Shown here in pieces: positions 5,579-62,383 of a stretch of 64,000 nt of DNA. How positions within the stretch are numbered: position 1 is the first letter of the stretch; every line of letters starts with the position of its first letter. The notes beneath the pieces were generated by a model. The model searched no databases and was not told the DNA's origin. It saw nothing but the letters and a program-made list of their open reading frames with translations. A program made the position numbers and the translations under genes. The stretch lies in NCBI GenBank assembly GCA_022041995.1, contig CP074381.1:1922001-1986000 (forward strand). The letters run 5' to 3'. The stretch is from Cupriavidus necator (GTDB lineage Bacteria > Pseudomonadota > Gammaproteobacteria > Burkholderiales > Burkholderiaceae).

Positions 5579-5581
5579 GCG

Positions 5582-5890: not shown

Positions 5891-5931
5891 AATGTCATAA
5901 TATTGATTGTAGTGCCTGATATGGCAGGCAT
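5881..5931. promoter_or_regulatory. Candidate HipB operator region with repeated TGGCAGGCAT
   Basis: TGGCAGGCAT occurs at 5881-5890, overlapping the hipB start codon, and again at 5922-5931. An inverted half-site AGTGCCTGAT lies at 5911-5920, forming TGCC-N6-GGCA with the second copy. The region is AT-rich and is the only space for the hipBA promoter. Assigned as operator by position and repetition; binding is not shown. Confidence 0.55.
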
Positions 5932-5998
5932 AAAAGAATGATGTGTCAGCAAGACTGCGACGTCAAGAGGCAGTTATGTAATGCCTTCGATAGGAGTC

Positions 5999-6038
5999 GT
6001 TATGTGGAAAAAAATAGACATAACGCCTGCCTTGGCAG
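5999..6038. promoter_or_regulatory. Upstream hairpin and CTGCCTTGGCAG palindrome before hipBA
   Basis: A 7-bp inverted repeat GTTATGT/ACATAAC spans 5999-6024 with a 12-base A-rich loop. Directly after it lies a perfect 12-bp palindrome CTGCCTTGGCAG at 6027-6038, which shares the GGCAG core of the elements near hipB. These may be extra HipB sites or part of the mobile unit end. No gene is seen between 5891 and 6089. Confidence 0.35.
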
Positions 6039-6089
6039 CTCCAATGATTAGGATTCGGAGTGCTTAAGGGTTCACGCCGGAACCCGATG

Positions 6090-6212
6090 TCATCGCGATC
6101 CGGCGAATCAGTGGCTGCGCGACCAGTTCATCGGGTTGTTTTCGGACTAGGCACTGGCAGGCGCGCGCCCACGGACAATCGCGCTCCAGTTGTTGTGATC
6201 AGAGGTAGAGGC
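6090..6212. repeat. Right direct repeat flanking the hipBA unit
   Basis: A 123-bp copy of 4134-4266, lacking 10 bp. It begins within what would be the LysR gene (no start, only the last 20 codons and stop) and ends with the last three codons and stop of hipA. It abuts the 3' end of the PEBP gene by 21 bp. Together with the left copy it could let the hipBA segment excise by homologous recombination. Confidence 0.92.
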
Positions 6213-6233
6213 CGGCCGGGCATCAACGGGCCT

Positions 6234-6800
6234 TCAACGTCCAAACCGTCCGACCAGGCTCTGTGCCTCCAGGGCATGCCCCTTGAGCGCTGCCATCAGT
6301 TCGTCGCGCGTCATGCCCGCAGGCAGGTTCGGCGCCAGATCCGTCGCGATGACCGTGATGACGTAATGGTGGGGCGTCTCGCCGGTTGGCGCGCAGGGAC
6401 CGCGGTACGCCGCCTCGCCGCGCACGTTCTTGCCGACCGTGATGCCAGGCCCGTCCGCCTTGCCTTCGCCTTCCTTCAGCTGGCCGCGATGCGCGGCAAT
6501 GTTGTAGGCGACCCAATGCGAGACCCCGAGACCGGCGACGCCGTCCATGTCATACATCAGGATGGCGACGGACTTCGCGCCCGCGGGAAGCTTCGACCAC
6601 GAGACCTGCGGCGACACGCCCTTGCCGCCGCAGGGCTTCTGGTCGCCGCCAATACCATCATGCGCATACTGCGAAGCGATCGTGGCTCCCTCGGCGTACG
6701 AAGTGGACGACACCTGCATGCCCACGGCGTGTGCATTGCCAATGCACAGACATATCAAGGCCCCGGCCACCGGAGCGGAAATTGCGTTAGCGGTCTTCAT
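6234..6800 (-). CDS. YbhB/YbcL-type phosphatidylethanolamine-binding (PEBP/RKIP-like) protein, exported
   Basis: Small PEBP-fold protein (188 aa) of unknown physiological role. A Sec signal peptide is visible (first 25 residues, hydrophobic core APVAGALICLCIG, then NAHA). Family signatures follow: SPQVSWSKLPAGAKSVAILMYDMD, a HWVAYNI segment, and YRGPCAPTGETPHHYVITV, which matches the PEBP anion-binding loops. The length is normal for bacterial YbhB homologues. It is a single gene, transcribed towards the hipBA unit, whose right repeat ends 21 bp after its stop. Confidence 0.9.
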   Translation of the reverse strand: MKTANAISAPVAGALICLCIGNAHAVGMQVSSTSYAEGATIASQYAHDGIGGDQKPCGGKGVSPQVSWSKLPAGAKSVAILMYDMDGVAGLGVSHWVAYNIAAHRGQLKEGEGKADGPGITVGKNVRGEAAYRGPCAPTGETPHHYVITVIATDLAPNLPAGMTRDELMAALKGHALEAQSLVGRFGR

Positions 6801-6849
6801 TCAAATTCTCCAGGTATGCAGTCAGCGGACCAGGAAAGGGAACGCCCCT

Positions 6850-8055
6850 CTAACTGGAATCGACCTGCTGGCGCAGCACCTGTCTGCGCGCCATCAGGTA
6901 GGTCAGGTTGGCTGACAGGAAAGCCGCCAGCAGCAAGGCACCGGCACTCCAGGCGACGGCAGGGAGCCATGGCAGCAGGCTTGCCAGCACGGCGGTCTTG
7001 CCGGCGCCCGATGACACCAGGGCAATGCGCATGAACGCGGCAACAGCCAAAGCGGCAAATACGAGCCCGGTGTACATCCCTTCGCGGCCGACATGACCGG
7101 CGTCGAGCGCGGCATTGGCCGTCGTGGCGAACATGATTCCCCACAGGCCGCCGGCAAGACATTGCACGGCGAGGATGGCCTGGAGCGAGCCCGCAACGGT
7201 GAAGCCGAACAACGACAGCGCGCCAAGGGCCGCAGCGGTCAACAGCAGCGTATAGGGCGGATAGCGCCGCAGCAACGGCGTCGCGGGCAGCAGCGCGCCC
7301 ACCGCGAAGCCGATCCAGAACACCGGCGTCACGCGCTCCAGCTCGACAGCCGTGACGAAGCGCAGGTAGGCCGGCGCGGAGTTGACCGTGGTGTGGATCT
7401 GGAAGCCGAGCGCAAGCACCCAGACCGCGGCAAAGAGCAGCCAGACGCGCTTGAGCGCAACGCCGGCTGCCGGCGCGGGCACGGCTTGGGCATCGTGGCG
7501 CGCCGCCGGGCCGGATTCCATCCATCGCAGCGCGGCCACGGCGACCACCAGCCCCGCGCTGGCGGCCAGGAACGGCAGCATGGGCGAGGCATCGCGCAGC
7601 CGGGCGGTCAGCAGCGGCGCCACGGCCCCGGCAAGGCCGATGCCGAGCAGCGAGCATCCCACCAGGAACGACGACGCGGTCGCAGGCAGTCGCCGGGCAA
7701 TGATCACCATGGGCGGCGCGCGCAACGCCGAAGAGGTGGCCGCCCAGAGCGCGGTCAGGCCCAGCAGCAGCGCCGGTGACGTTACCCGGGGCAACAACAG
7801 GAACGCCAGTGCGGAGATGGCCGACAGCCCCAGCATCCAGCCCCCCAGCCTGCGCATCGCATTGGCGACACGGTCGGCCGCGACGCCCACCGTGAAGTCC
7901 ATGACGACAAAGATCACCTGGTCCATCAGCAGGATCAAGGCGACGTGCGCGCGCGCGATGCCGGCCTGCGCGGCCAGCTGCGGCAGGAAGGCCACATAGA
8001 GGGTCCACGTCACCGCCAACAGCAACTGCACAGAGCAGAAGACCAACGCGCGCAT
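6850..8055 (-). CDS. Major facilitator superfamily transporter
   Basis: Inner-membrane transporter (401 aa) with about 12 hydrophobic segments in two halves separated by a hydrophilic loop near residues 195-210. The first loop carries a relaxed MFS motif A (GVAADRVANAMRRLGG). ATG 8055 is preferred; an in-frame GTG at 8064 would add three residues. The substrate cannot be inferred: no conserved substrate-class motif is recognised and the neighbours (PEBP gene, unknown protein) are not informative. The C-terminus ends about 50 bp before the PEBP start, in the same orientation. Confidence 0.8.
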   Translation of the reverse strand: MRALVFCSVQLLLAVTWTLYVAFLPQLAAQAGIARAHVALILLMDQVIFVVMDFTVGVAADRVANAMRRLGGWMLGLSAISALAFLLLPRVTSPALLLGLTALWAATSSALRAPPMVIIARRLPATASSFLVGCSLLGIGLAGAVAPLLTARLRDASPMLPFLAASAGLVVAVAALRWMESGPAARHDAQAVPAPAAGVALKRVWLLFAAVWVLALGFQIHTTVNSAPAYLRFVTAVELERVTPVFWIGFAVGALLPATPLLRRYPPYTLLLTAAALGALSLFGFTVAGSLQAILAVQCLAGGLWGIMFATTANAALDAGHVGREGMYTGLVFAALAVAAFMRIALVSSGAGKTAVLASLLPWLPAVAWSAGALLLAAFLSANLTYLMARRQVLRQQVDSS

Positions 8056-8415
8056 GCCACCCACCCGCCTGGACTGACTAACAGCCTATGCCCATGCCCG
8101 ACGGCAGGATTGCCGCGCTGAGCGTCCCAATAGCAAGGATAGGGCAGCGCCTTGCCCTGGGAGTGGCGGGTTGTGCATGCGATTGGGGCTCGCGAGTCGC
8201 CTGCGGTCCAACCGTCCGCGGGAAGTGCCGGGCCGGTACCAACACCGGAGCATTGGCGCCACAGCGGCGCCCGCGCTCAACTGCCGCTCCCGCAGCCAAT
8301 GCCGGGCGAAATGTCATAAGCGGGCTGTACGCTGCACTTCCGGCATGGCCTGGCCAGGAACTTGCTTGGTCAATGCGTAAGGTCGCAAGGCGACATCCAT
8401 CAGTCGGGAGGATCT
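8056..8415. other. Intergenic region without a recognised gene
   Basis: 360 bp between the divergent MFS and unknown-protein genes. It is GC-rich, and short frames on both strands show no recognisable protein. It should hold both divergent promoters, but I see no convincing -35/-10 pair. A GGGAGGA ribosome site for the downstream gene lies at its right end. Confidence 0.5.
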
Positions 8416-8796
8416 ATGCAGCATGCACGCATCACCGCGCACAGGGGGATTCTGGTCGTCGAGTTGTTACCTGACCAGGCGAACGGCGAGGCCACCTCGA
8501 CCAACAAGCTCCGCAATCTGGCCACGGTCATTCATGACACAGGGCGGCACCTGGGGGTTTCCGAGGAAGCGCTGGCGCTGCTGAAGATGGTGAAGCGCGG
8601 CCTTGACGCCATCGGCGACTTTGCCTGGTTCCGTAGCGACGACGGGAGAGATCATTTTGCCTGGCTGGGCGGCCCGAAGCGGCTGGTGAATCCCACGGCG
8701 GTAGCGGCTGCCCGGAGCTACGCGATTCTTGCGCACCGGGTCATTCCGAACGAGGTGCCGGAGGGCGCCAGGATGGCCATTGAAGCCAACTTTTGA
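8416..8796 (+). CDS. Hypothetical protein
   Basis: 126-residue protein of unknown function. ATG 8416 is chosen because GGGAGGA lies 6 bp upstream. The product is probably cytosolic, with no signal peptide or membrane segment. It has a mixed helix/strand composition with a central EEALALLKMVKRGLDAIGDF helix and a C-terminal AARSYAILAHRVIPNEVPEG segment. It is monocistronic, between a divergent MFS gene and a convergent short gene. I recognise no family. Confidence 0.65.
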   Translation: MQHARITAHRGILVVELLPDQANGEATSTNKLRNLATVIHDTGRHLGVSEEALALLKMVKRGLDAIGDFAWFRSDDGRDHFAWLGGPKRLVNPTAVAAARSYAILAHRVIPNEVPEGARMAIEANF

Positions 8797-8848
8797 GCAC
8801 GCGGTGTCGCTCCAGGCCGGTTCGGCTGTATCCAGATACTTCGAATGA

Positions 8849-9154
8849 TCAGCGGTGCTGGAACGAGGAGAGGGTGGAGCGATACCGTTCCCAGAGCTCT
8901 TGCAGAATGGATTCTGAAGGCGGGGTGATTTCAAAACCGGCGACGTCTGCGAAGACACCGAGAATGCGAGCCCTGAACGAAGCCATATCTGTCGTCGCCT
9001 TCGGTGAGCTGTGCGCGATATCGATAATCGTATGCAGCTGCCCGCCCGAGAGTTCGGCGATAGCGGACCACAAGCTATCAGGCTTTGCGCAGGGCTGGAC
9101 GGGCATCTTTCGCATCGGCGCCAGGCAGCTCTTGCTATCGGCTTGCGGGGCCAT
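8849..9154 (-). CDS. Hypothetical protein at the end of the cysI operon
   Basis: 101-residue protein of unknown function. ATG 9154 overlaps the end of the upstream DUF934 gene by 20 bp. The central part, SLWSAIAELSGGQLHTIIDI, and the C-terminal part, GFEITPPSESILQELWERY, look like amphipathic helices of a real protein. No good Shine-Dalgarno is visible, so it may be translationally coupled. A longer in-frame start at 9232 would lie wholly inside DUF934 and is less likely. Confidence 0.5.
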   Translation of the reverse strand: MAPQADSKSCLAPMRKMPVQPCAKPDSLWSAIAELSGGQLHTIIDIAHSSPKATTDMASFRARILGVFADVAGFEITPPSESILQELWERYRSTLSSFQHR

Positions 9155-9674
9155 AGCTGCGCTGGTACGACGATGAGAACGTGGACAGGGCGCGCAATGC
9201 CGCTGCCGGGTCGTGCCCGGGCTTGAGCGCAAAGCTGTTGAAACCGCAACGCGCCAGGTAGTGCACGGTGTCGATCATCACGTCACCCACGGCGCGCAGC
9301 TCTCCGGTCCAGCCTAGCTGGTGCCGGAGCAGCTGTGCGATCGAATAGCCACGGCCATCCGTGTAGACCGGGAAATCGATGGCAATCATCGCGATGCCGG
9401 TCGGATCCATGACCGTGGCCCCAGGTTCGAGCAGGGTCTGAGGCTCCGCATCCGGCGACAGGTAGACCGCGAGCGGATACCGGCGCAGCCGATACCGCGT
9501 GCGGTGGGCGGTCCAGTTCTCCAGGGTTACCAGGTAGCCGGGCTCGTCAGGCGGGCAGGCCTTGCCGGCGTCTTGCGCATCGCCGGTGTGAGTGAGCCAG
9601 TTGTCCGCGATCAGTTGTCCGTCGCGGATGACGTTGCGCCGGTCAGGTCCGGCGGAATGGTCTTGGTCAGGCAT
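9135..9674 (-). CDS. DUF934 family protein, sulfite reductase partner
   Basis: DUF934 protein (179 aa) commonly found beside hemoprotein sulfite/nitrite reductases in betaproteobacteria; its biochemical role is not established. ATG 9674 overlaps the reductase stop by 8 bp, which supports this start over an upstream one. Family features seen are DGQLIADNW near the N-terminus, the central FPVYTDGRGYSIAQLLRHQLGWTGELRAVGDV block, and FNSFALKPGHD near the C-terminus. It is cotranscribed with the reductase gene. Confidence 0.88.
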   Translation of the reverse strand: MPDQDHSAGPDRRNVIRDGQLIADNWLTHTGDAQDAGKACPPDEPGYLVTLENWTAHRTRYRLRRYPLAVYLSPDAEPQTLLEPGATVMDPTGIAMIAIDFPVYTDGRGYSIAQLLRHQLGWTGELRAVGDVMIDTVHYLARCGFNSFALKPGHDPAAALRALSTFSSSYQRSYGPASR

Positions 9675-11406
9675 GCGCCGTCTCCTGGCGAGCTCGCCGC
9701 GCACCGGTGACAGGATCCGGGTACACAGCGCGCTGGAATGGTTCGATGCCGATTCGGCCGACCACGTCGACAAAGCGTTCGGCGTCGCTGTCCCGATGCA
9801 GCAAGTAGGTCTCGATCAGTCGTTCGACCACATCCGGAACCTGCTCCTGGGCAAATGACGGCCCGATGATGCGGCCGATGGCAGCGCCCCCGGCCGCCAC
9901 GCCATCCAGGCGGCCCGGGCTGTCGCCGCCGTTCTGCCGGCCACCGATGGTGATCTGGTACCAGGCTTCGCCGGCCTTGTCGACGCCGAGGATGCCGATG
10001 TGGCCGACATGGTGGTGGCCGCAGGAGTTGATGCAGCCGGAGATGTTCAGGTCCAGTTCGCCGATGTCGTGCGCGTGGTCGAGGTCGTCGAAGCGCTCCT
10101 GGATGGCCTGCGCCAGAGGGATCGAGACGGCATTGGCCAGCGAGCAGAAGTCGCCCCCGGGGCAGGCGATGATGTTGGTGATCAGGCCCACGTTCGGCGT
10201 GGCCAGCCCGGCGGCGTCCAGCTCCTGCCACAAGGCGTGCAGGCCGCTGCGGCGGACGTCGGCAAGGATCAGGTTCTGCTCATGCGACACGCGCAGCTCG
10301 CCGAAGCCGTGGCGCTCGGCCAGGTCGGCCATGATTTCCATCTGGTCGGCAGTGATGTCGCCGGGCGCCGGTCCCGTGGCTTTCAGCGATGCCGTGACGG
10401 CAGCGTAGCCAGGCACCCGGTGCCGATGCACATTGCTCTTCAGCCACAGGCGGAAGGCGCGGTCGGTCTTCGCCAGTTCGGCTGACACCTCCGGCTCGTC
10501 CGCGGCAGCGGGGTCATACGGCGGGATCGTGAAGCGCCCGGCGATGGACGCGACAAAGTCCTCGGATACGGTGTCCGGGCCGCCTCGGATGCGTTGCCAT
10601 TGCTCTGCCACCTGCTCACGGAACACTTCCGGGGTCAGGTCTTTCACCAGGATCTTGATGCGCGCCTTGTACTTGTTGTCGCGGCGGCCGTGCAGGTTGT
10701 AGACGCGCAGCGTGGCCTGCAGGTAGGTCAGCAGGTCCTGCCAGGGGACGAAGGGGTTGATCAGCTTGCCCACCATCGGCGTGCGGCCCATGCCGCCACC
10801 GACCCAGACCTTGAAGCCGGCCTGGCCGTCCTGTGCAACGGCCTGCAGCCCGATGTCATGGACCCCGACCGCGGCCCGGTCCGTCTGCGCGCCACTGATG
10901 GCAATCTTGAACTTGCGCGGCAGGAAGGCGAACTCGGGATGCAGCATCGACCATTGCCGGACGATCTCGCACCACACCAGCGGGTTCACCAGTTCGTCGG
11001 GCGCGATGCCGGCAAAGTGGTCGGTGGTGGTATTGCGGATGCAGTTGCCGCTGGTCTGGATCGCGTGCATCTGCACCGTGGCCAGTTCGGCGAGAATGGC
11101 GGGAGCATCCTCGAGCCGCGGCCAGTTGAACTGCAGGTTCTGGCGCGTGCTGAAGTGCCCGTAGCCGCGATCCCAGCGGCGCGCGATTCCCGCGAGCTTG
11201 CGCAACTGCCGCGACGCCAGCATGCCGTAGGGAATCGCCACGCGCAGCATGGGCGCATGGCGCTGGATATAGAGGCCGTTCTGCAGCCGCAGCACGCGGA
11301 ACTCATCCTCGCTGAGCTGGCCGTTCAGGAAGCGGCGGGTCTGGTCGGCGAACTGCACGACGCGTTCGTCGACGAGCTTCTGGTCAATGGCGTCATAGAC
11401 ATACAT
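9667..11406 (-). CDS. cysI: Sulfite/nitrite reductase hemoprotein subunit (siroheme, [4Fe-4S])
   Basis: Siroheme and [4Fe-4S] reductase (579 aa), most likely assimilatory sulfite reductase giving sulfide for cysteine. Two ferredoxin-like half domains are visible: an N-terminal one with HFSTRQNLQFNW and TSGNCIRNTTTDHF, and a C-terminal one with the cluster/siroheme cysteines CPGGDFC (about 414-420) and CINSC (about 457-461), followed by GHHHVGHIGILG. DUF934 downstream supports the sulfite role, though such proteins are sometimes annotated nitrite/sulfite reductase. The gene lies about 30 bp after cyoD on the same strand and may share readthrough. Confidence 0.9.
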   Translation of the reverse strand: MYVYDAIDQKLVDERVVQFADQTRRFLNGQLSEDEFRVLRLQNGLYIQRHAPMLRVAIPYGMLASRQLRKLAGIARRWDRGYGHFSTRQNLQFNWPRLEDAPAILAELATVQMHAIQTSGNCIRNTTTDHFAGIAPDELVNPLVWCEIVRQWSMLHPEFAFLPRKFKIAISGAQTDRAAVGVHDIGLQAVAQDGQAGFKVWVGGGMGRTPMVGKLINPFVPWQDLLTYLQATLRVYNLHGRRDNKYKARIKILVKDLTPEVFREQVAEQWQRIRGGPDTVSEDFVASIAGRFTIPPYDPAAADEPEVSAELAKTDRAFRLWLKSNVHRHRVPGYAAVTASLKATGPAPGDITADQMEIMADLAERHGFGELRVSHEQNLILADVRRSGLHALWQELDAAGLATPNVGLITNIIACPGGDFCSLANAVSIPLAQAIQERFDDLDHAHDIGELDLNISGCINSCGHHHVGHIGILGVDKAGEAWYQITIGGRQNGGDSPGRLDGVAAGGAAIGRIIGPSFAQEQVPDVVERLIETYLLHRDSDAERFVDVVGRIGIEPFQRAVYPDPVTGARRARQETAHA

Positions 11407-41730: not shown

Positions 41731-43264
<1,534 letters not shown>

Positions 43265-43583
43265 CAGAGCGTGCATCCCAAGTCGAGCGTTCACACTTAT
43301 CGGTTTGTTTGTGGTTAGGGCCAGGTGGCCAAATGCAAGCGCTTCGCAAGAGCGTTTGCATTTGGCATTGCCAAGCGATCTGACGATCGGCTGTTCTTTA
43401 ACAATATGGGATGTAGTAAAGGTGTCGCGAAGCGTTGATGAGACGCTGCATTACCAACGCGATACCGGGTTGTGATTGTATCAACCAAAATGTATTTAAG
43501 TGATCGAAAGATGACTTGGAATACGGCACAAATGCGAGAACTCATCCTGTAGCGACTGTCTCACTGAGACACACTCGTTATAG
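43265..43583 (+). other. 16S-23S internal transcribed spacer without tRNA genes
   Basis: A 319-bp spacer. I see no tRNA-Ile or tRNA-Ala: there is no T-loop GGTTCGA-type sequence and no acceptor pair. Instead there is a strong hairpin at 43328-43366 (GCCAAATGCAA pairing with TTTGCATTTGGC) and a boxA copy at 43393-43405. Positions 43283-43309 pair with the leader for 16S release, and 43570-43591 can pair with 46545-46566 for 23S release. Confidence 0.85.
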
Positions 43584-46553
<2,970 letters not shown>

Positions 46554-46638
46554 TATAACCAGTGTGTTTTGCCTGGTGAGTGATTCGCCTGTGCCCTCGG
46601 TTGGCACAATACGCACAACCAAGACTACATCCCTATTC

Positions 46639-46666
46639 GTGACGCTGGCTTCAACCCCAGCGTCAC
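46639..46666 (+). other. Hairpin between 23S and 5S rRNA
   Basis: GTGACGCTGG and CCAGCGTCAC form a perfect 10-bp stem with an 8-nt loop in the 23S-5S spacer, 9 nt before the 5S start. It probably serves RNA processing; there is no T-run, so it is not a terminator. Confidence 0.6.
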
Positions 46667-46675
46667 AACCCCTCA

Positions 46676-46792
46676 TGCCTGGTGACCATAGCGAGCTGGA
46701 ACCACCCCTTCCCATCCCGAACAGGTCCGTGAAACAGCTCCGCGCCGATGATAGTGCGGATTCCCGTGTGAAAGTAGGTCATCGCCAGGCTC
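46676..46792 (+). rRNA. 5S ribosomal RNA
   Basis: About 115-117 nt. The ends TGCCTGGTGACCATAGCGA and GGTCATCGCCAGGC pair as the 5S terminal stem. The internal CCCATCCCGAACAGG and GCGCCGATGATAGTG are conserved 5S loops. It is the last gene of the rRNA operon and is followed by a terminator. Confidence 0.95.
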
Positions 46793-49373: not shown

Positions 49374-50482
49374 ATGGGTGTACAGAACGAAGCCTTCCTC
49401 GCCGACGCGCTGTTCCAGCCGATCAAGCTGGGCAAGCTCGAGCTCGCCAACCGCATGGCCATGGCGCCGCTCACGCGCAGCCGGGCCGACGACAACCTCG
49501 TGCCGACCGACATGGTGGTCGAGTACTACAGCCAGCGCGCCAGCGTGGGCCTGATCATCGCTGAAGCCACGCAGGTCTCGACCACTGCCCAGGGCTACAC
49601 CAATACGCCGGGCATCTACACCCCCGAGCAGATCGCTGCCTGGAAGAAGGTGACCGACGCGGTGCACGCGAAGGGCGGCAGGATCTTCCTGCAGATCTGG
49701 CACACCGGCCGCATGTCGCACACGCACTTCCAGCCGGACAACCAGGCCCCGGTCGCTCCGTCGGCCATCGCCGCCAATGCCAAGACCTACATCAACGGCA
49801 AGGGCTACGTCGAATGCTCGGTCCCGCGTGAGCTTGAGGCTGCAGAGATTGCTGGCATCGTGGACGACTTCCGCATCGCTGCGGCCAACGCCGTTCAGGC
49901 CGGCTTTGACGGCGTCGAAGTCCATGGTGCGCACGGCTACCTGCTTGACGCTTTCCTGCGCGACGGCACCAACAGGCGCACCGACGCGTATGGCGGCAGC
50001 ATCGAAAACCGCTCGCGCTTCCTGCTCGAAGTCATGGCTGCCGTGGTCAAAGAGATCGGTGCCGACCGGGTCGGCGTTCGCCTGGCACCGGTGTCGCCCG
50101 TCAACGACGCGCTGGAGAGCAATCCGCAGCCGCTATTCGAGCACGTCGTGCGTGAACTGGAGAAGCTGCACCGGTGTATATCCACGTCGTCGAAGGCCAC
50201 ACGGGCGGCCCGCGCGACAACGCGCCTTTCGATTATGAAGCGCTGCGCCGCCTGTACACCGGCGTATGGATGGTCAACAACGGCTACTCCAAGGAGATGG
50301 CCGAAGAGGCGATTCGTCGTGGCAGTGCCGACATGGTTTCGTTCGGCCGCAAGATGATCACCAACCCCGACCTGCCGCGCCGCTTCCGCGAAAACAAGCC
50401 GCTGAACCGTCCCTTTGAAGACGCTTCGCTGTACGGCGGCAATGGTGCGCACGGCTACGTCGACTACCCGGAACTGGGCTGA
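49374..50482 (+). pseudogene. Old Yellow Enzyme / N-ethylmaleimide reductase-like flavoprotein, interrupted by one missing base
   Basis: FMN-dependent ene-reductase that would reduce electrophilic alkenes or quinones with NAD(P)H. The first frame has LGKLELANRMAMAPLTRSRA, the active-site His/Asn context VHGAHGYLLDAFLRDGTNRR and IENRSRFLLEVM. It fails after ELEKLH. The second frame continues VYIHVVEGHTGGPRDNAP and carries the FMN-binding RRGSADMVSFGRKMITNPDL to 50482. Adding a C at CC 50171-50172 gives 369 residues, the normal length. Both halves are well conserved, so a sequencing error is likely. Confidence 0.87.
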
Positions 50483-50971: not shown

Positions 50972-51333
50972 GGCGGTACTCCGATTTGCTGTACGAAGGG
51001 CAGAACGCGGCGGGCGTCCTCTCACTGATACGCAGAAGCTGTGCCACCGGATGCGGACCGACAAAAATGGAGTCGCAGCCCCGTCATCAGCGAATTCCGC
51101 CCGGTTGGCGGAGCAAATGTTGGGCAGAAACAGACTTGCGGCGTATCAGCCGCCCGCCCAAACCAACAGCTTCAGCCGTCGGCCAGTTCCCGCGCTGGCA
51201 TCCCCGCCTCCGGCTGGTCTCGACAGCGTTAAGCTGACCATGGCCAATGCGGGCATTGCCTGCGCTGATGGATGGCGCCTACGCCATGTTCCCCCTGTAG
51301 AATCGGCCTCCACGCAACCCTGGAACGTCCCGC
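50972..51333. other. Intergenic region between divergent genes
   Basis: 362 bp between the minus-strand exported protein and the plus-strand M48 peptidase. Frames here give no recognisable protein. TAGAAT at 51298-51303 could be a -10 box for the peptidase operon, but a convincing -35 is not seen. No repeat or tRNA is found. Confidence 0.45.
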
Positions 51334-52539
51334 ATGGACTCTCACGCCCCGGATCGCGGCGCGCTGGTGCCGCTGGCCTATCACGCAACGGTGGTCGACT
51401 ACCTGCGCCGCCATGAGCCCGAGGTCTGGCGCTGGGCCGGCGCCCGCGCGACCGGCGCCGATCAACGCGAGGCACTGCGCTCGATGCTGCTGCGCGACAC
51501 CTACCGCATCGAGGCGGATGCGCATGCCGACGTACATGCGGCGCTGGCCGAGGCGATGACACGGCTCGGCATCGACGCGCGCGCGACGCTCTACCAGTCC
51601 CCGGGCCAGGACATGAACGCCTCGCTGGTCTACGTGCCGGGCGAGGTCCACATCGTCCTGCAGGGGCCGCTGCTGGATCGGCTGTCGCCGCCGGAGCTGC
51701 TGGCGGTGTTTGGCCACGAACTGGCCCACTACCTGCTGTGGTCGCGCGACGACGGCCGGTTCCTGGTGGCCGACCGGGTCCTGAACGACGCGCTGGCCGC
51801 GCCCGGCGCCAGCGCCAGCCATCGCGAGACCTGGCGCCGCTACGCGCTGCACACCGAGCTGTTCGCCGACCGCGGCGGCGCCGTGGCAGCCGGCGCGGTG
51901 GCGCCGGCCGTGTCGACGCTGGTCAAGGTGGAGACCGGCATCGGCAGCGTGGACGCGGCCGCCTACCTGCGCCAGGCGGCCGAAATCGAATCCCGCGAGG
52001 CGGGCGCAAGCGCCGCCCACAGCCATCCCGAGACCTTTATCCGGGCGCGCGCGCTGGCGCTGTGGTGGGAGGGCGCGGCCGATCTCGATCCATGGATCGA
52101 AACCCGGCTGCACGGCCCGCTGGCGCTGGAGCAGCTGGACCTGCCGGGGCAGGTCCGGCTGCAGGGGCTGACACGCGGCTTCCTGGCGCACTTCCTCGCC
52201 GGCACGGCGCTGGCGAGCGAGACGGTGCTCGCGCAGGTGCGGATGATGTTCCCCGACTGGCGCGACGACGAAGCGGCAATCGGCCCCGAGGGGTTGGGGC
52301 CGGACGTGGCCGACGACAGCGTGCGCGGCTACCTCAACGCACTGATGATGGACCTGGCGCTCGCCGACCCCGACCAGCAGGACGCGGCGCTGCTGCGCGC
52401 CGGCCAGGTGGCGCGGGCGCTCGGCAGCCTGGACGCGCTGCAAGGCAACCTGCGCCGCGACGCCGGCTTCGGCAAGCGCGAGCTGGACCGCCTCCAGCGC
52501 CAACTCCAACGCGAACTGGCCAGGGAGGGCCGGGCATGA
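51334..52539 (+). CDS. M48-type zinc metallopeptidase, partner of the DUF4011 helicase
   Basis: Soluble zinc peptidase (401 aa). The zinc motif H-E-x-x-H is in FGHELAHYLLW (about residues 126-136), with a third ligand in HTELFADRGG (Glu about 175), as in M48/CAAX-protease-like minigluzincins. SHPETFIRARAL is another conserved family block. There are no membrane helices, unlike HtpX. The stop overlaps the start of the giant helicase gene by 4 bp (ATGA), so the two are coupled. The substrate is unknown; cleavage of the partner or of a host or phage protein is conceivable. Confidence 0.85.
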   Translation: MDSHAPDRGALVPLAYHATVVDYLRRHEPEVWRWAGARATGADQREALRSMLLRDTYRIEADAHADVHAALAEAMTRLGIDARATLYQSPGQDMNASLVYVPGEVHIVLQGPLLDRLSPPELLAVFGHELAHYLLWSRDDGRFLVADRVLNDALAAPGASASHRETWRRYALHTELFADRGGAVAAGAVAPAVSTLVKVETGIGSVDAAAYLRQAAEIESREAGASAAHSHPETFIRARALALWWEGAADLDPWIETRLHGPLALEQLDLPGQVRLQGLTRGFLAHFLAGTALASETVLAQVRMMFPDWRDDEAAIGPEGLGPDVADDSVRGYLNALMMDLALADPDQQDAALLRAGQVARALGSLDALQGNLRRDAGFGKRELDRLQRQLQRELAREGRA

Positions 52540-55500
52540 CTGAGGGCATGAATGAGAGCACGACCCACGGCACGAACACCATTCCGGGTATGAGCGGCAG
52601 CAGGGAGCCGCGCACGCTGCGCGCGCTGATCGATGCGCAGGCGGGCGCGGCGCTGCCGACCGACGACGTCCTGGTGCTGGTGTTGCCGCTGTTCGCGCAG
52701 GTCGCCGCGCTGCACGCGCAGGGCAGGGTGGCCACGCTCGATCCCGACAGCATCCTGGTTGACGCGGACGGCGGGCTGCGCCTGCGCCGGCCCGATGGCG
52801 AAGCCCCGGTCATGGACATCGGCGCGGTGCATCGCGTGCAGCCGCATCCGGCCTCGGGCCTGAACATCGTCGGCGCGCTGCAGCTCGGCCACGCCGATGA
52901 CGGACAGCGCGACCAGGCCGACCTGGCGTTGCAGCTTGACGCTACGGCGCCGGTCGAACGCCCGGTCTATCTGCGCGGCCCGGCCAGCTGGGAACGCCTG
53001 CTTGGCCACCACGACGAGATCGGCGACGTCTTCCTGCTCGGCATGGTGCTCGCGAGCCTGGCCTGCGGCCTGGACTTCGCCGACGAGGACGACCTGCGCG
53101 GTTTTGTCGCGCAGCGCCGCAACCTGTTCCTGCTGCACGAGCGCTTGCATCCGATCCTCGCCGCGGTGATCGTCGAGATGACCGAGATCAACCGCCACGA
53201 CCGCGCGACCGATGTCGCCGCGCTGGCGACCCGGCTGCGCACGTGGCGCGAGCAGCCGCCGGGACTGGACGTCGAACGCGCGCTGGCCGGCACGATGGGT
53301 GCCACGCCGCGTCGTGCCGCCGTGCTCACGCACCTGCGCGACCGCCTGTTCGATCTCTCGCGGCGCAACCGCCTGCTGCACTTCCGTCCGACCGCGGCCA
53401 CCGTCAACGTCACCGTGGCCAGCGTGCCGCTGATGCTGCAGATCGAAAGCGTGCGGCCCGAACACATCTGCACCTGGGGCGGACCGTTCGCCGCCGACCT
53501 GGTGGCGGGCAAGCCGGTGTCGCTGCAGCGCTGGCTGCGCTTCGACGACCAGCCCTACCTGCCGGCGTCGCTCGACCGCCTGATTGCCGAGACCCGCCGC
53601 GACCGCGCCGAATACGGCTTCAGCAACCTGCGCCTGGTGGTGGCGTTCCTGCGCTGGCACAACCTGAAAGAGGCGCCGGACGAGCGCATCGTGACGCCGC
53701 TGCTGTGGCTGCCGGTGGAGCTGGTCAAACGCAAGGGTGTACGCGACCAGTACATGATCCAGTGCGCGGGCGGCGAGGCCGAGTTCAACCCGGTGCTGCG
53801 CCATTACCTGCACCAGCTGTACGACATCCGGCTGGACCAGACCGTGGATCTCGACAAGACCTCGATCGAGGAGATCCATGCCGGCATCCTCGCGCAGATT
53901 CGCCGCTCCGAGCCCTCGGTCGAACTGCGCCTGGTCGACAAGGCCGCGGTGCGGCTGGTGCGGCAGAAGGCGCTGCAGCGGATGCAGCAGTTCCAGCGCC
54001 GCAGGCCGGGCACGGCCGCCGCGCGCAGCGGCGGCTGGCTGCCGCCGTACAGCTATGCGCAGGACGACTACCGGCCGCTGGGGCGCGCGCTGTTCGAGCA
54101 TTGGGTGCGGCCGAGCGAGCTGCCGCAGCGCTTCGAAGCCGGCGCCACGCCAGGCGCCGGCCCGCGGCAGCCGCATATGAGCGGCTCCGCCGCCGCGCAA
54201 GGCGAAGAGCGCCAGGGCTACGTGCTGGAGGAGTCCGAGGGCCACCGTTATGCCTGGGACCTGGACCTGACGCAGGTGACGCTGGCCAACTTCAACTACC
54301 GCAAGATGTCGCTGGTGCGCGACTACGCGCAATTGCTGGACGAACCCGGCGCCAATCCGGCGTTCGACCGCGTGTTCTCGATCGATCCGCGCGACGTGGA
54401 AACCCAGGCGCCCGCGCCGCTCGCACCGGCCGAGCAGTGGAACGTGGTGGCGGCCGACGCGACCCAGAACGCCGCGGTCGGCCTGGCGCGCAGCCAGCGC
54501 AGCTTTATCATCCAGGGCCCGCCGGGCACGGGCAAATCGCAGACCATCACCAACCTGATCGCCGACTACGCCGGCCGCGGCAAGCGCGTGCTGTTCGTCT
54601 GCGAGAAGCGCGCCGCGCTCGACGTGGTGTTCCATCGGCTCAAGCAAAGCGGGCTGGACTCGCTGTGCTGCCTGATCCACGACTCGCAGACCGACAAGAA
54701 GGCCTTCATTGCCGACCTGCGCGCCTGCTACGAGCAGTGGATCGCGCAACCCGATGACGGCGACGCGCTGGCGGCGCGCCGCATGCAGGTGGCTGAGGCG
54801 CTGGCGGCGCACCAGCAGCGTATCGACGCGTTCGAGGCCGCGATGGCGGCAGCGCCAGAGGCACTCGGCGACAGCGTGCGTGCGCTGCTGCGCCGCGTGG
54901 CGGCGCTGCCGGCCGTGCCGGACGCGGGGCCTGCGCTGCGCGAGCGCCTGCCGGCGCTGGCCGCATGGGACCGTCAGCGCGATCTCGCGCACCGCGTGCA
55001 CCGCGCGATGCGCGAACGCTTCGGTCTCGACAGCCTGGCCGCGCATCCGTTCGCGCGCCTGTCCCCGCCACTGCTGGCCGACGAGCGCGCCTATGGCCGC
55101 GCCGAGCAGTTGTGCCATGACGCCGAGGCGCTGTTCGATGCGCTCGACCCGCTGCTGGACAGCACCGTGAGCCTGACCGGCCAGGACACCGCGCTGGAGC
55201 AGGCACGCGCGATTGCCGCCGACAGCCAATGGCTGCTCGACGCGGGCCTCGCCGCGCACCTGGACCTGCTTGATCCGGCCTCGCCGGCGCAAGGCGCGCT
55301 GCGCGAGGTCCGCGCGGAGCTGGAGTCGCGCGCGCGGGCACTCGCCGACGCGCAAGCCGCAACCTCGAACTGGCAAAACAAGTTGAGCTCCGGCGATACC
55401 GAATCCGCTCTGGCGCTCGCGCGGCGGCTGGAGCCGTCGTTCGCGCGCTGGCTGCAGCCCGCATGGTGGCGATTGCGCGGCGAACTGAAGCGCCGCTATG

Positions 55501-58070
55501 ACTTCGGCAAGCACGCCGTCCATCCGGGCTACGGCAAGGTGCTGGCCGCGCTGGCCGCCGAGCATGCGGCAAGCGCCGCGCTGGCAGCGGCCGATGCCGA
55601 CAGCCGCCGCCGCTACGGCGTGAGCGAGATGCAGGCGTTCCTGCGCGCGCTCGGCGAACTCGAGCAGCGCCTGCAGTCGGGCGCGGGCCCGCGCGAACTG
55701 GTCGCGCATCTGCGCCAGGCTGTCGATCCGGTCGTGGCGGCGCGCGCCGAAGCCGGTGCGCGCGAAGCGCTGGAGAAGCTCGCGCAGCGTGTGCGCGACG
55801 GGCTGGCACTGGCCCCCGACGCGCGCCTTGGCGACATCGCCGAACTGCTGCGCGACCTGCGCGAGGCGCTCGATGACCTGCCAGACCTGTTGCCGCTGCT
55901 GCGCGCGCTGCACGCGGGCGACCCCGCCTGCGCCGCCACGCTGCAGTGGCTCGATCACGCACCGGCACAGCTCGAGGCGCTGGTGGCCGACGAGGCGCTG
56001 CGCCGTCTCTCGCGTGAGAACCCGGTGCTGGCGCGCTTCGGCGGGGCGGCGCTGGCGCAGGCGGCGCGCGCCGTGGCGCAGGGGCAGCGCGAGCTGCTCG
56101 CGCTGAACGCGCAAGTGGTGCGCGCCACGCGGCACAAGCGGTTCGCCGAGCATGTGCGCGTGTCTTCGCTGTCGGCCACGATGCTGGACGCCGACGGCAA
56201 GGCGTTCAAGAAACAATATGCCATGGGCCGCCGTGAACTGGAGCATGAGTTCGGCAAGAGCATGCGCCACCGTTCGATCCGCGATCTCTCCGACGACGAG
56301 ACCGGCATCGTCATCAACGACCTGAAGCCGATCTGGCTGATGAGCCCGCTGTCGGTGTCCGACACACTGCCGCTGTCGGCGGACCTGTTCGACGTGGTGA
56401 TCTTCGATGAGGCCAGCCAGATTCCGACCGAAGAGGCCGTGCCCGCGCTGAGCCGCGCGCGCCAGGTGGTGGTGGTCGGCGACGAGATGCAGCTGCCGCC
56501 GACAAGCTTCTTCACGGCCGGCGGCGCCGAGGGCGACGACGAGATCGTCGTGGAAGAGGAGGGCGACCGCATCGCCATCAACCTCGACTCGGACAGCCTG
56601 CTGAACCAGGCCGCGCGCAACCTGCCAGCCACGCTGCTGGCGTGGCACTACCGCAGCCGTCACGAGTCGCTGATCAGCTTTTCCAACGCCGCCTTCTACG
56701 ACGGGCGCCTCGTCACCATTCCCGACCGCTTGCTGGAGCAGGCCGAGGACGAGGCGCCTGCGCTGCGCTCGGACCAGGAGGACGCCGGCATCGCGGGCGC
56801 CGACGCGCTGCTGGCGCGGCCGGTCAGCTTCCATCTGCTGGCAGACGGCGTCTACGCCGACCGCCGCAATGCGCCCGAGGCGGGCTATATCGCCCGGACC
56901 GTGCGCGAACTGTTGCGCCGCGAGACTGGGCTGAGCCTGGGCATCGTGGCGTTTTCCGAGGCGCAGCAGGGCGCCATCGAGTCCGCGCTCGAGGCGCTGG
57001 CCGCCGAGGACGCGGACTTCGCGATGCGCCTCGAACGCGAGTACGTGCGCGAGGACGACGACCAGTTCAACGGGCTGTTCGTCAAGAACCTGGAGAACGT
57101 GCAGGGCGACGAGCGCGACGTCATCATCCTGAGTATCTGCTACGCACCAGGACCGGACGGCAAGATGCTGATGAACTTCGGCCCGATCAACCAGCGCGGC
57201 GGCGAGAAGCGCCTGAACGTGATCTTCAGCCGCGCACGCCATCGGATGGCGGTAGTGTCGACGATCCAGGCCGAGGCGATCACCAACGTGCATAACGACG
57301 GCGCGGCCGCGCTGCGTGCGTTCCTGCAGTTCGCGCAGGCGAGCGCGCGCGGCCGGTTCGAGCGTGCCCAGGCGGTGCTGGGCGCGCTGAACCCGGGCGC
57401 GCGCGACGTCTTCACTCGCGAGGCCACGCCGGACAGCATCCGCGACGCACTGGCCGGGGCGCTGCGTGCGCGCGGCCACCAGGTGCACGCCAACGTCGGC
57501 CGCTCGCAGTTCCGCTGCGACCTGGCCATCGCCGATCCGTCGGGTCAAGGCTACGCGCTGGCGATCCTGCTCGATACGCCGTCCGAGGCGGTGTCGGACA
57601 CCGCCGAGCGCTATGTATTCCGCCCCGGCATCCTGCGCAGCTTCGGCTGGCGGGTGCTGGACATCCCCGGCAAGGACTGGCTCGACGATGCGGACGCGGT
57701 GCTGGCCCGCATCGAGGCCATGCTGGCCGAGGGCGAGGATCGCGCGCTGGACGTGGAGGTCGAGATCCCGGTGCCGTTGGCGAAGCCGGCCGCGGTGCAG
57801 GATGCGGCGTCAACGGGCGAGGCCCGGACGGACGCGGCGACGGCATCGGCTGCGCAAGCGGAGCTGGTGCGGACGCTGCGCTTCGAACAGGGCACGTCGC
57901 GCAAGTTCTGGCGTGCCAGCGTGCGCGGGGCGGAACTCTGCGTCACCTATGGCCGCATCGGCAGCGCTGGGCAGACCAGCGTGAAGGCGTTCGACAGCGC
58001 CGAGCGGGCGCGGCGCGAGGCGGACAAGCTGGTGGCGGAGAAACTGCGCAAGGGCTACGTGGAGGCGTAG
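52536..58070 (+). CDS. Giant DUF4011 / SF1 helicase / nuclease / WGR protein with kinase-like N-terminus
   Basis: Multidomain protein (1,844 aa). Residues about 25-240 resemble a degenerate protein kinase: ALHAQGRVATLDPDSILVD (catalytic-loop-like) and GDVFLLGMVLASLACGLDF (helix F-like). DUF4011 begins at RDRLFDLSRRNRLLHF (about 268). An SF1 helicase follows with Walker A GPPGTGKSQT (about 660), Walker B VVIFDEASQIP (about 1290), VVVGDEMQLPP, WHYRSRHESLISF, and motif VI-like RLNVIFSRARHRM (about 1560). About 1632-1720 looks like a Vsr/restriction-type nuclease (RCDLAIADPSGQGYALAILL). The end (about 1778-1844) is a WGR domain. Proteins with DUF4011-helicase-Vsr order are reported as antiphage; the kinase and WGR parts and the peptidase partner are additions I do not recall described. 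Confidence 0.87.
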   Translation: MTEGMNESTTHGTNTIPGMSGSREPRTLRALIDAQAGAALPTDDVLVLVLPLFAQVAALHAQGRVATLDPDSILVDADGGLRLRRPDGEAPVMDIGAVHRVQPHPASGLNIVGALQLGHADDGQRDQADLALQLDATAPVERPVYLRGPASWERLLGHHDEIGDVFLLGMVLASLACGLDFADEDDLRGFVAQRRNLFLLHERLHPILAAVIVEMTEINRHDRATDVAALATRLRTWREQPPGLDVERALAGTMGATPRRAAVLTHLRDRLFDLSRRNRLLHFRPTAATVNVTVASVPLMLQIESVRPEHICTWGGPFAADLVAGKPVSLQRWLRFDDQPYLPASLDRLIAETRRDRAEYGFSNLRLVVAFLRWHNLKEAPDERIVTPLLWLPVELVKRKGVRDQYMIQCAGGEAEFNPVLRHYLHQLYDIRLDQTVDLDKTSIEEIHAGILAQIRRSEPSVELRLVDKAAVRLVRQKALQRMQQFQRRRPGTAAARSGGWLPPYSYAQDDYRPLGRALFEHWVRPSELPQRFEAGATPGAGPRQPHMSGSAAAQGEERQGYVLEESEGHRYAWDLDLTQVTLANFNYRKMSLVRDYAQLLDEPGANPAFDRVFSIDPRDVETQAPAPLAPAEQWNVVAADATQNAAVGLARSQRSFIIQGPPGTGKSQTITNLIADYAGRGKRVLFVCEKRAALDVVFHRLKQSGLDSLCCLIHDSQTDKKAFIADLRACYEQWIAQPDDGDALAARRMQVAEALAAHQQRIDAFEAAMAAAPEALGDSVRALLRRVAALPAVPDAGPALRERLPALAAWDRQRDLAHRVHRAMRERFGLDSLAAHPFARLSPPLLADERAYGRAEQLCHDAEALFDALDPLLDSTVSLTGQDTALEQARAIAADSQWLLDAGLAAHLDLLDPASPAQGALREVRAELESRARALADAQAATSNWQNKLSSGDTESALALARRLEPSFARWLQPAWWRLRGELKRRYDFGKHAVHPGYGKVLAALAAEHAASAALAAADADSRRRYGVSEMQAFLRALGELEQRLQSGAGPRELVAHLRQAVDPVVAARAEAGAREALEKLAQRVRDGLALAPDARLGDIAELLRDLREALDDLPDLLPLLRALHAGDPACAATLQWLDHAPAQLEALVADEALRRLSRENPVLARFGGAALAQAARAVAQGQRELLALNAQVVRATRHKRFAEHVRVSSLSATMLDADGKAFKKQYAMGRRELEHEFGKSMRHRSIRDLSDDETGIVINDLKPIWLMSPLSVSDTLPLSADLFDVVIFDEASQIPTEEAVPALSRARQVVVVGDEMQLPPTSFFTAGGAEGDDEIVVEEEGDRIAINLDSDSLLNQAARNLPATLLAWHYRSRHESLISFSNAAFYDGRLVTIPDRLLEQAEDEAPALRSDQEDAGIAGADALLARPVSFHLLADGVYADRRNAPEAGYIARTVRELLRRETGLSLGIVAFSEAQQGAIESALEALAAEDADFAMRLEREYVREDDDQFNGLFVKNLENVQGDERDVIILSICYAPGPDGKMLMNFGPINQRGGEKRLNVIFSRARHRMAVVSTIQAEAITNVHNDGAAALRAFLQFAQASARGRFERAQAVLGALNPGARDVFTREATPDSIRDALAGALRARGHQVHANVGRSQFRCDLAIADPSGQGYALAILLDTPSEAVSDTAERYVFRPGILRSFGWRVLDIPGKDWLDDADAVLARIEAMLAEGEDRALDVEVEIPVPLAKPAAVQDAASTGEARTDAATASAAQAELVRTLRFEQGTSRKFWRASVRGAELCVTYGRIGSAGQTSVKAFDSAERARREADKLVAEKLRKGYVEA

Positions 58071-58146
58071 CGCCTGGACAGGGCGGCCGGCGCGCATGCT
58101 CCGGGAAATCCATGCCCGCCAGGTTGGGGCGCAGGAGGCGGCGCGA

Positions 58147-58899
58147 CTAGCCGCCCTCGTCCCTGGGCCAGAAGGTAATGAGGATATTGGCAGGCGCGAC
58201 GCCGTTTTCGTCGCGCGGTAGCGGGTCGGATCGCTGCACCGCGCGCAGCACGGCGTTGTCCCAGGCCGCATTGCCGCTTGACTTGGCGAGCCGCGTTGAC
58301 AGCACTGAGCCATCCGGCGCCATGGCCACGGCCACTACCGCCGCCGGATTGCCGCTGACGTCTTCATTGAAGATGATGTTCGGCTTGACCCGCTGCCGGA
58401 CCCGCTCGGCATAACCGGACGAAGGCTTCGTGCCGGAGCCGGAGCCGGCCCGCGTGCCTGTATTGCCCGCCTGCGCCCGCAAGCGCGCCAGTTCGCCCTG
58501 GCGCTGGGCATTGTCGGACTGGCGCTGCGCTTCCATCGCCTTGCGCTGCGCCTCCTTGCGGGCCGCCTCGGCACGGGCCTGGCTCTCGCGCTGCCGCGCT
58601 TGTGATTCGTCGCGCGCGGCCTGCTGGGCCTTGCGCTGCTTTTCCTGCAGCGAGATGTCGGCCTCCTCCTCTTCGGCCGGCTTCGGGCTTGGCACCGGCG
58701 TGATGGCAGGCGCTGGTGTCGCGGCTTCCGGGATCGCCTCCCACAGTTCGGCCGCAACCCCCTCCGGTGCCGCGCTGCGCCAGCGCACGCCATAGTAGAG
58801 CAGTACACCCAGCAGCAGGTGCATGAACAAGGCCAGCAGGAAACACGTCAAGGTGCCCCGTTCAGGCACTGGCTGATAGGGATAGGCGACGGTCTGCAT
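58147..58899 (-). CDS. TolA-like envelope energy-coupling protein
   Basis: Inner-membrane protein (250 aa) with one N-terminal helix (LTCFLLALFMHLLLGVLLYY) and a long charged helical middle rich in Gln, Arg, Ala and Glu (about residues 80-145). The C-terminal domain has YAERVRQRVKPNIIFNEDV and ends ILITFWPRDEGG, matching the TolA/TonB C-terminal fold. It is not next to tolQRB, so it is probably an extra TolA paralogue. The stop lies 76 bp from the convergent giant helicase gene. Confidence 0.82.
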   Translation of the reverse strand: MQTVAYPYQPVPERGTLTCFLLALFMHLLLGVLLYYGVRWRSAAPEGVAAELWEAIPEAATPAPAITPVPSPKPAEEEEADISLQEKQRKAQQAARDESQARQRESQARAEAARKEAQRKAMEAQRQSDNAQRQGELARLRAQAGNTGTRAGSGSGTKPSSGYAERVRQRVKPNIIFNEDVSGNPAAVVAVAMAPDGSVLSTRLAKSSGNAAWDNAVLRAVQRSDPLPRDENGVAPANILITFWPRDEGG

Positions 58900-61978: not shown

Positions 61979-62383
61979 ATGGATAATGGGATCGCCAAGT
62001 CATGGCCAAAACAGGTAAGGATTGTCGAAGTCGGACCGCGGGACGGCCTCCAGAGTGAAAAGCAGATAGTTCCTGCCGCGGTAAAGATCGAGCTTATCGA
62101 ACGTCTGGCGGATGCGGGATTGCCGGCGGTGGAAGCCACGGCCTTCGTGTCGCCACGGTGGGTGCCGCAGATGGCAGACAATGCTTCGGGCAACGTTGCC
62201 ACCGAGGACGTTGTCTACTTGCTCAGCTCCATGGGGATCGAGACAGGTGTCGATATGGACAAGCTGCTCTCGGCCAGCGCCTTCATCTCGGATCATCTGG
62301 GCCGCCGGCCGGCTTCCAAGGCGGCACGGGCCCTGATGGCGAATCGCGGTCACGTCACACCGAAGGGGACCTGCCAGTCATGA
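61979..62383 (+). pseudogene. Hydroxymethylglutaryl-CoA lyase with a large in-frame internal deletion
   Basis: The enzyme normally has about 300 residues and cleaves HMG-CoA to acetoacetate and acetyl-CoA in leucine breakdown. Here only 134 codons exist. The N-terminal part is intact ([20 protein letters not shown], with catalytic Arg-Asp, and [12 protein letters not shown]). It joins directly to the C-terminal part ([37 protein letters not shown]). Roughly 165 codons, including the metal-binding H-x-H and the catalytic Cys loop, are missing. A GGAGGA ribosome site remains. It cannot be catalytically active. Confidence 0.82.

Follow-up and report, generated by a model that had tools for sequence, protein, structure and literature searches.

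The described systems most like the locus analysed here are large antiphage helicases. ProA (NCBIfam NF058533, "anti-phage protein ProA") has the domain order DUF4011, SF1 helicase, MTES_1575 nuclease, and Hhe (NCBIfam NF042953; PADLOC Hhe) has a DUF4011-helicase-nuclease plan. SF1 helicases translocate on nucleic acid. PDC-S37 is what we take to be a PADLOC phage defence candidate, and in Mokosh the helicase MkoA is encoded with a partner gene that presumably differs from a peptidase. A metalloprotease linked to DNA is described for the crosslink proteases SPRTN and Wss1; these are of the SprT family, whereas the peptidase described below is of the M48 family, and neither is known to be coupled to a giant helicase gene. 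According to the report on Hachiman, the helicase of HamAB senses damaged DNA and controls a separate effector that is released on sensing (PMC12278908); that effector is a nuclease, and the domain plan described there is other than that of our pair. A DUF4011 gene has also been described as a core flank of a Pseudomonas aeruginosa defence hotspot (PMC10250203).

Our literature search, which was thin on subscription papers, did not tie DUF4011 to a peptidase or to a WGR domain, did not find the combination of M48 peptidase, helicase and antiphage, and recognised neither ProA as an antiphage protein nor the first report of Hhe. The literature returned on the WGR domain with phage defense concerned ADP-ribosylation only, and that on TerB with helicases, peptidases and conflict systems concerned jumbo phages only.

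Comparison with Described Antiphage Systems

We analysed a window of 64,000 nucleotides from Cupriavidus necator (contig CP074381.1, positions 1,922,001 to 1,986,000), part of a genome of 9.6 Mb, in which a metallopeptidase gene is followed by a giant helicase gene. The giant scored 701.6 bits against ProA (best stretch residues 574-1765) and 465.4 bits against Hhe, below the cut-offs of 1500 and 2000, respectively. Of the affinity to Hhe that the initial annotation had noted, the relationship stood (465 bits for Hhe and 702 for ProA), and membership of either family did not. The positive examples of ProA and Hhe scored 2081 bits (L057) and 2156 bits (L058), and both had retained the nuclease Glu discussed below and had no M48 gene in a 14-kb stretch. 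The best PADLOC match of the giant was PDC-S37 (E 1.3e-207, residues 571-1750; no curated cut-off is given for this model), a match that stopped short of the kinase lobe and the WGR domain. The MkoA profile of Mokosh, whose helicase is of the same superfamily, reached 114 bits on the giant with its best stretch in the helicase, and one MkoA model also matched the kinase of a relative (L059). Unlike Mokosh, the window has a kinase C-lobe devoid of catalytic motifs and pairs its helicase with a peptidase. Compared with ProA, the giant adds a kinase C-lobe, a WGR domain, a degenerate nuclease-type domain and the peptidase partner, for which the PADLOC models gave no match.

Features of the Gene Pair

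The features of the locus, in window coordinates, were as follows:

51290-58070 (no strand): cassette, the DNA common to copies elsewhere, set by the edges of BLAST similarity
51296-51303 (+): extended -10 like promoter element TGTAGAAT, about 30 nt 5' of the peptidase start, found by eye
51334-52539 (+): M48 zinc metallopeptidase gene, 401 aa, PF01435 match
51715-51729 (+): HELAH zinc motif, residues 128-132, conserved in the aligned peptidases
51856-51858 (+): third zinc ligand Glu175, conserved in the aligned peptidases
52536-52539 (+): ATGA stop/start overlap of the peptidase and giant genes, seen in the window sequence
52536-58070 (+): giant gene, 1,844 aa, with kinase C-lobe, DUF4011, SF1 helicase, degenerate nuclease-type domain and WGR
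52605-53300 (+): kinase C-lobe fold, residues about 24-255 (AlphaFold, mean pLDDT 72; VIA)
53343-53810 (+): DUF4011 domain, residues 270-425, PF13195, 54.0 bits (cut-off 22.2)
54456-54647 (+): helicase motor 1 with Walker A GPPGTGKS, residues 641-704, PF13086 (AAA_11)
56595-57260 (+): helicase motor 2, residues 1354-1575, PF13087 (AAA_12)
57450-57722 (+): MTES_1575 nuclease-type domain, residues 1639-1729, 51.1 bits (cut-off 38.2), with ILLD for IECD
57885-58064 (+): WGR domain, residues 1784-1843, PF05406, 60.5 bits (cut-off 22)

The initial annotation had placed a HELAH peptidase gene in ATGA overlap with a gene of 1,844 codons, and had assigned DUF4011, SF1 helicase and WGR domains to the latter; the coordinates were confirmed and each of the three domains scored above its Pfam cut-off. 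It had also suggested a survey of whether the two genes co-occur; co-occurrence was counted here from the loci of giant homologues and from the M48 side. In all 25 homologous loci a peptidase gene lay immediately 5' of the giant gene, as in the window, with peptidase identities of 50-95% and giant identities of 56-94% (best segment). These are distinct loci from a scan of one genome per species that detects close relatives only; three of them have broken frames in one or both genes (L048, L050 and L055), and the contig of another (L031) begins inside the peptidase gene. The giant relatives were found in Cupriavidus, which is home to the nearest named relatives, and in Burkholderia, Paraburkholderia, Herbaspirillum, Duganella, Massilia, Stenotrophomonas, Xanthomonas, Arenimonas, Pseudomonas and other genera.

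The overlap was ATGA in 25 and GTGA in one of the 26 loci (window included), which suggests coupled translation of the peptidase and the giant. The sequence GGAG stood 9-12 nt 5' of the giant start in 21 of the 26, and in four divergent pairs (L067, L068, L093 and L098) the overlaps were 4, 8, 8 and 13 nt. The eight letters of TGTAGAAT were identical and at the same place in 11/26 loci, by eye; a consensus scan found no full sigma-70 promoter. Values of dN/dS were 0.14-0.26 for the peptidase (three comparisons) and 0.05-0.09 for the second helicase motor (four comparisons). Based on the retention of the pair in 25/25 loci and on the genes being mostly under purifying selection, we conclude that the pairing is not due to chance.

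At one of these loci, in Herbaspirillum sp. RV1423 (L051, 217-2867, +), a truncated second M48 copy was observed just 5' of the intact pair, overlapping by 4 nt a gene whose protein looks Sel1-repeat-like by eye.

The M48 Peptidase

The window peptidase scored 37.2 bits against Peptidase_M48 (PF01435; cut-off 20.3). With this score, the HExxH motif and the Glu of the third ligand, the protein is a member of the M48 peptidases. H128, E129, H132 and E175 were invariant in 19/19 aligned peptidases, and the catalytic residues were also found in the four divergent pair copies and in three copies fused to a helicase, so that, by sequence, the active site is complete.

The AlphaFold model of the peptidase had a mean pLDDT of 88. 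VIA gave, over residues 19-250, Z 10.6 for the Zn-peptidase 3c37, 9.9 for ZMPSTE24 and 9.7 for BepA; the VIA rows cover mainly residues 19-259 and hardly reach the C-terminal half. Foldseek with the same model found no match at E < 0.001 (the best was BepA, E 0.022), and a PDB sequence search with the peptidase profile found none at E up to 1. No transmembrane segment was recognised in the peptidase by eye. The second-best Pfam match was SprT-like (PF10263), at 18.3 bits below its cut-off of 25.6; one divergent pair (L068) reached 24.5 bits against this cut-off.

The helical C-terminal half of the window peptidase aligned with the TerB region of the fusions described below. Pfam gave no match to TerB (PF05099) in the window peptidase, and its C-terminus may resemble TerB, judged by the alignment with the fusions only.

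The Kinase-Like N-Terminus and the Helicase

A model of residues 1-258 of the giant, made from a 20-row alignment, was compared with known structures. Of the 50 Foldseek matches listed, 49 were protein kinases or kinase complexes and the remaining one (8iyj) was a chain of a large microtubule assembly; the three at E < 0.001 were to PknB and LIMK2. The best VIA match had Z 14.6 and an rmsd of 3.8 over 181 residues to LIMK1 417-634, and the match to PknB 93-286 had Z 13.9. A common arrangement of helices can bring mostly helical models to Z 13-14; here, every VIA row listed was a kinase. Residues 417 of LIMK1 and 93 of PknB lie, we assume, near the start of the kinase C-lobe; some VIA rows start earlier in the kinase, with poorer rmsd. 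An active protein kinase has an N-lobe with the VAIK Lys, and HRD and DFG motifs. Because the N-terminus aligned with the C-lobe in the best VIA rows, had no N-lobe and showed no VAIK, HRD or DFG in the alignment (by eye), we regard it as a C-lobe remnant and not as a kinase. The initial annotation had called this region a degenerate, kinase-like pseudokinase; structure prediction supported the kinase fold and the term pseudokinase, and reduced the region to a C-lobe fragment.

Among the relatives, L059 (G024, 5033-10933, -) encodes a DUF4011 helicase that begins with a recognisable protein-kinase domain (PF00069, 65.2 bits) and may be the counterpart, with a kinase, of the protein that has the C-lobe in the window.

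Walker A (GPPGTGKS) was invariant in 20/20 aligned giants, a DEAS box stands directly 5' of the motor 2 segment, and motor 2 is among the most conserved parts of the giant. The WGR domain matched the solved structure 2ra8 by sequence (E 1.3e-12); WGR domains of PARPs are reported to bind DNA breaks. The linker before it (1740-1783) was variable, with dN/dS of 0.33-0.98.

Loss of the Catalytic Glu in Peptidase-Linked Giants

Canonical relatives without a peptidase have nuclease motifs of the form RIDLAV...IECDGxxYH...RDRDRLR...RxWSxDW, and the window domain reads RCDLAI...ILLD...ERYVFRP...LDIPGKDW. Its MTES_1575 score was 51.1 bits, compared with 123 and 132 in two canonical relatives. The second catalytic acid, the Glu of IExDG, was replaced by a hydrophobic residue in all 27 peptidase-linked giants read, which comprise 20 in the family alignment, four divergent pairs and three fusions (six of the 26 loci, being near copies or broken, stand outside the alignment). 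At this position the 20 aligned giants read AILLD (18), GILLD (1) and AVLLD (1), the divergent pairs had Leu or Phe, and the fusions had Leu or Met. The Asp...Glu-x-Asp pattern of MTES_1575, by which the Hhe/ProA lineage is recognised, is therefore absent from the window family.

The Glu was kept in 6/6 fetched relatives without M48 (L056, L057, L058, L059, L060 and L061). A profile search that detected the control, L098, gave no M48 match in any of the six 14-kb stretches. The tail of L059 is in a second frame; it keeps the Glu, its RDRD motif has changed to a window-like form, and it has part of the other changes of the window domain. As L059 shares these other changes yet keeps the Glu, only the Glu tracks the peptidase.

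A survey with PF18741 found matches in 45/185 genomes; 30 loci of best matches were taken and 25 could be aligned. Among these best matches, 22 of the 25 aligned loci retained the Glu, a count that favours intact domains, as lower-scoring matches and second matches in a genome were left aside. The three loci without the Glu were the window, a pair (G716) and a fusion (G828), all linked to a peptidase. Of the 22 that kept it, 12 came from frames of > 1,000 aa and 10 from shorter frames; the 12 genomes with the longer frames had no match in the class or phylum M48 scans, genomes being paired by handle number.

Two Asp residues, the first one (in RCDLA) and that of the second motif, were invariant in 20/20 giants. 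In three of four comparisons the domain had dN/dS of 0.08-0.19; the fourth, with L053, gave 0.61 at very low dS. Given the constraint in 3/4 comparisons, we take the domain to be a remnant that binds DNA or has a structural role, and loss of the Glu would not in itself prove that the nuclease is dead. The initial annotation had named a probable nuclease domain and suggested mutating its Asp. The MTES_1575 fold was indeed present; a role as active effector was not supported, given the loss of the Glu in 27/27 peptidase-linked giants, and with that residue gone, mutation of the "nuclease Asp" would probably test little.

Fusions and Stand-Alone Peptidases

Relatives were found in 16/369 genomes of one class in a search with the fused peptidase part. 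Three of them were fusions, two were pairs, of which one has a broken giant, and the remaining 11 were peptidases that stand alone. The fusions (L066, L085 and L086; 1,896-2,073 aa, the query's own included) have M48 and TerB preceding DUF4011 and helicase, at the position held by the kinase lobe of the giant in the pair. M48 scored above the Pfam cut-off in 3/3 and TerB (PF05099, cut-off 24.4) in 1/3, with 26.1 bits in L066, 21.5 in L085 and no match in L086. The fusions share the helicase type of the giant, and the nuclease Glu is absent from them. These natural fusions backed the earlier proposal that the peptidase is a functional part of the system.

The stand-alone genes of the same class (L087-L092, L094-L097 and L099) form a second M48 family of about 400-500 aa with a TerB-like tail, in which HExxH and the Glu were kept in 11/11. 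No giant was found near them in the stretches fetched, several of which stop a short way from the gene. The 11 loci showed no common partner: leaving aside M48 and the shadow frames of the opposite strand, the families present in at least three loci came mostly from three that appear closely related.

In the peptidase tree, the pair, fused and stand-alone forms were three clades. In the helicase tree, which has long branches, the pairs and the fusions were one clade each and the join between them was not settled; the gain of the peptidase and the loss of the Glu may thus have been one event.

Distribution and Genomic Setting

The full-length giant was found in 8/36 genomes of the genus (35 relatives and the window's own), and the peptidase family in 7/299 genomes of the bacterial family (E 1e-15) and 4/398 of the phylum (E 1e-6), the window's own genome being counted in both. 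The pair is therefore sporadic and accessory, as had been proposed, and it occurs in differing contexts. The window peptidase had no match among 72,556 plasmid and 50,697 phage records, and the peptidase profile had one weak match of 54 residues in IMG/VR. Relatives of the giant below 60% identity, with the peptidase absent, were on 343 plasmids, and none of them covers 80% of the giant.

BLAST similarity to the window in 10 genomes started at 51289-51294 and ended at 58063-58095. In a near relative (G029) the flanks are shared too, at 95% over 13.5 kb. Six genomes (L032, L033, L034, L043, L053 and G034) had at least about 450-680 bp in common just 5' of the cassette, with a gene for a glycine-zipper protein in this common DNA in 3/3 genomes scanned; this common 5' DNA indicates that the cassette is not at a new place each time. 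Candidates for an empty site were not clean. In G034, G1066 and G002 the downstream flank occurs without the cassette (85-87%), and the upstream side there mismatches the window; G034 has a cassette of its own, on a different contig, and G032 has the flank genes in a changed order.

A defence-island setting was not seen. The 146 neighbour proteins scanned (up to three genes on each side, in the window and 25 loci) were ordinary save for a few single matches to defence models. The scan matched 32 PADLOC models at E 1e-10; the 25 listed had one protein each and comprised methyltransferase-type models, mad2 and a subtilase. The neighbour Pfam families among those listed were transporters, regulators, TonB receptors and similar.

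Other genes were observed in the window. A TonB/TolA-like gene (58147-58899, -; PF13103, 83.3 bits) is convergent with the giant, and DNA like that of its region occurs cassette-free elsewhere in the genus. The pair has stress-type genes nearby (OsmC, old-yellow-enzyme, TetR). The old-yellow-enzyme type gene (49374-50482, +; Oxidored_FMN) is seemingly split by a frameshift, its frame stopping at 50357 with the apparent C-terminus in an ORF at 50174-50482 (by eye). The rRNA operon (41731-46790) has a 16S-23S spacer of about 319 nt (43265-43583), and ARAGORN found no tRNA there or elsewhere in the window. A 134-aa frame (61979-62383, +), resembling by eye the start of hydroxymethylglutaryl-CoA lyase, ends early, before a glutathione-transferase-like gene.

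Discussion

The explanation that we prefer, and hold with middling confidence, makes the pair a DNA-triggered protease system of two components, derived from the DUF4011/SF1-helicase/MTES_1575-nuclease antiphage lineage (Hhe, ProA, PDC-S37), in which the effector has changed from a nuclease to a protease. As read from the sequences, the nuclease fold is retained and its catalytic Glu lost, and an M48 peptidase with an intact active site is encoded in overlap on the 5' side or, in another lineage, fused to the N-terminus of the helicase. In such a system the giant would load on DNA ends or abnormal DNA via WGR, the nuclease-type fold and the helicase, and its ATP-driven movement would signal foreign or damaged DNA. 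The kinase C-lobe would dock the peptidase, as we suppose from the position of the C-lobe, which the peptidase occupies in the fusions. The activated peptidase would then cleave proteins on the invading DNA, or essential host proteins. Given the kinship of the helicase body with antiphage families, the most likely purpose would be antiphage or anti-plasmid defence; with ordinary neighbours, and the peptidase not found on plasmids or phages, defence is a role that we infer.

The main rival, which we consider unlikely, is the repair of DNA-protein crosslinks without a role in defence: the helicase and WGR domain would find blocked ends and the metallopeptidase would digest proteins bound covalently to the DNA, as a bacterial counterpart of SPRTN/Wss1 that acts with a translocase. 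A WGR domain of the DNA-end type, a helicase and a metalloprotease are here together, a dead nuclease fits repair, and so do the ordinary chromosomal neighbours, the stress-type genes near the pair in the window and the peptidase being without plasmid or phage matches. The SprT-like second-best Pfam match (and its higher score in L068) also points in this direction; however, SprT stayed under the cut-off and the fold matches were of M48 type. The sporadic occurrence (4/398 phylum genomes) in differing contexts is unlike that of most repair genes, and the closest named families are antiphage proteins.

The peptidase might instead be a regulator that switches the giant on or off by cleaving it, for example in the kinase lobe or in the linker before WGR, with the helicase itself blocking invading DNA. 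The strict coupling of the pair agrees with this, and the variable linker 1740-1783 could contain a cleavage site. We nevertheless find it quite improbable, as peptidase and helicase are a single chain in the fusions and there was no sign of a helicase-only effector. It seems very improbable that the nuclease is active with an altered site (using, for example, the Asp of LLD), which would make the system an ordinary DNA-degrading defence of Hhe/ProA type with the peptidase as an accessory. The two invariant Asp residues (20/20) and the constraint on the domain in 3/4 comparisons would be expected of an active enzyme, but Leu, Phe or Met stands in place of the Glu, other motifs of the canonical relatives (YH, RDRDxxR and RxWSxDW) are altered too, and the MTES_1575 score falls from 123-132 to 51 bits.

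Returning to the DNA-triggered protease system, we propose more tentatively that a DNA translocase is here the switch of a cytosolic M48 metalloprotease, that the effector was replaced (the nuclease being inactivated and a protease recruited) in trans or, in a second lineage, by fusion, and that a kinase C-lobe was reused as a docking platform. If true, this would be an immune or genome-protection mechanism that answers foreign or damaged DNA with protein cleavage. A member that lacks an evident membrane part and has a DNA translocase as partner would also widen the known range of the M48 family. The exchange of effectors is a main idea on how bacterial immune systems diversify, and its stages can be read in these sequences: relatives that have the Glu but no peptidase, and coupled pairs and fusions that lack the Glu.
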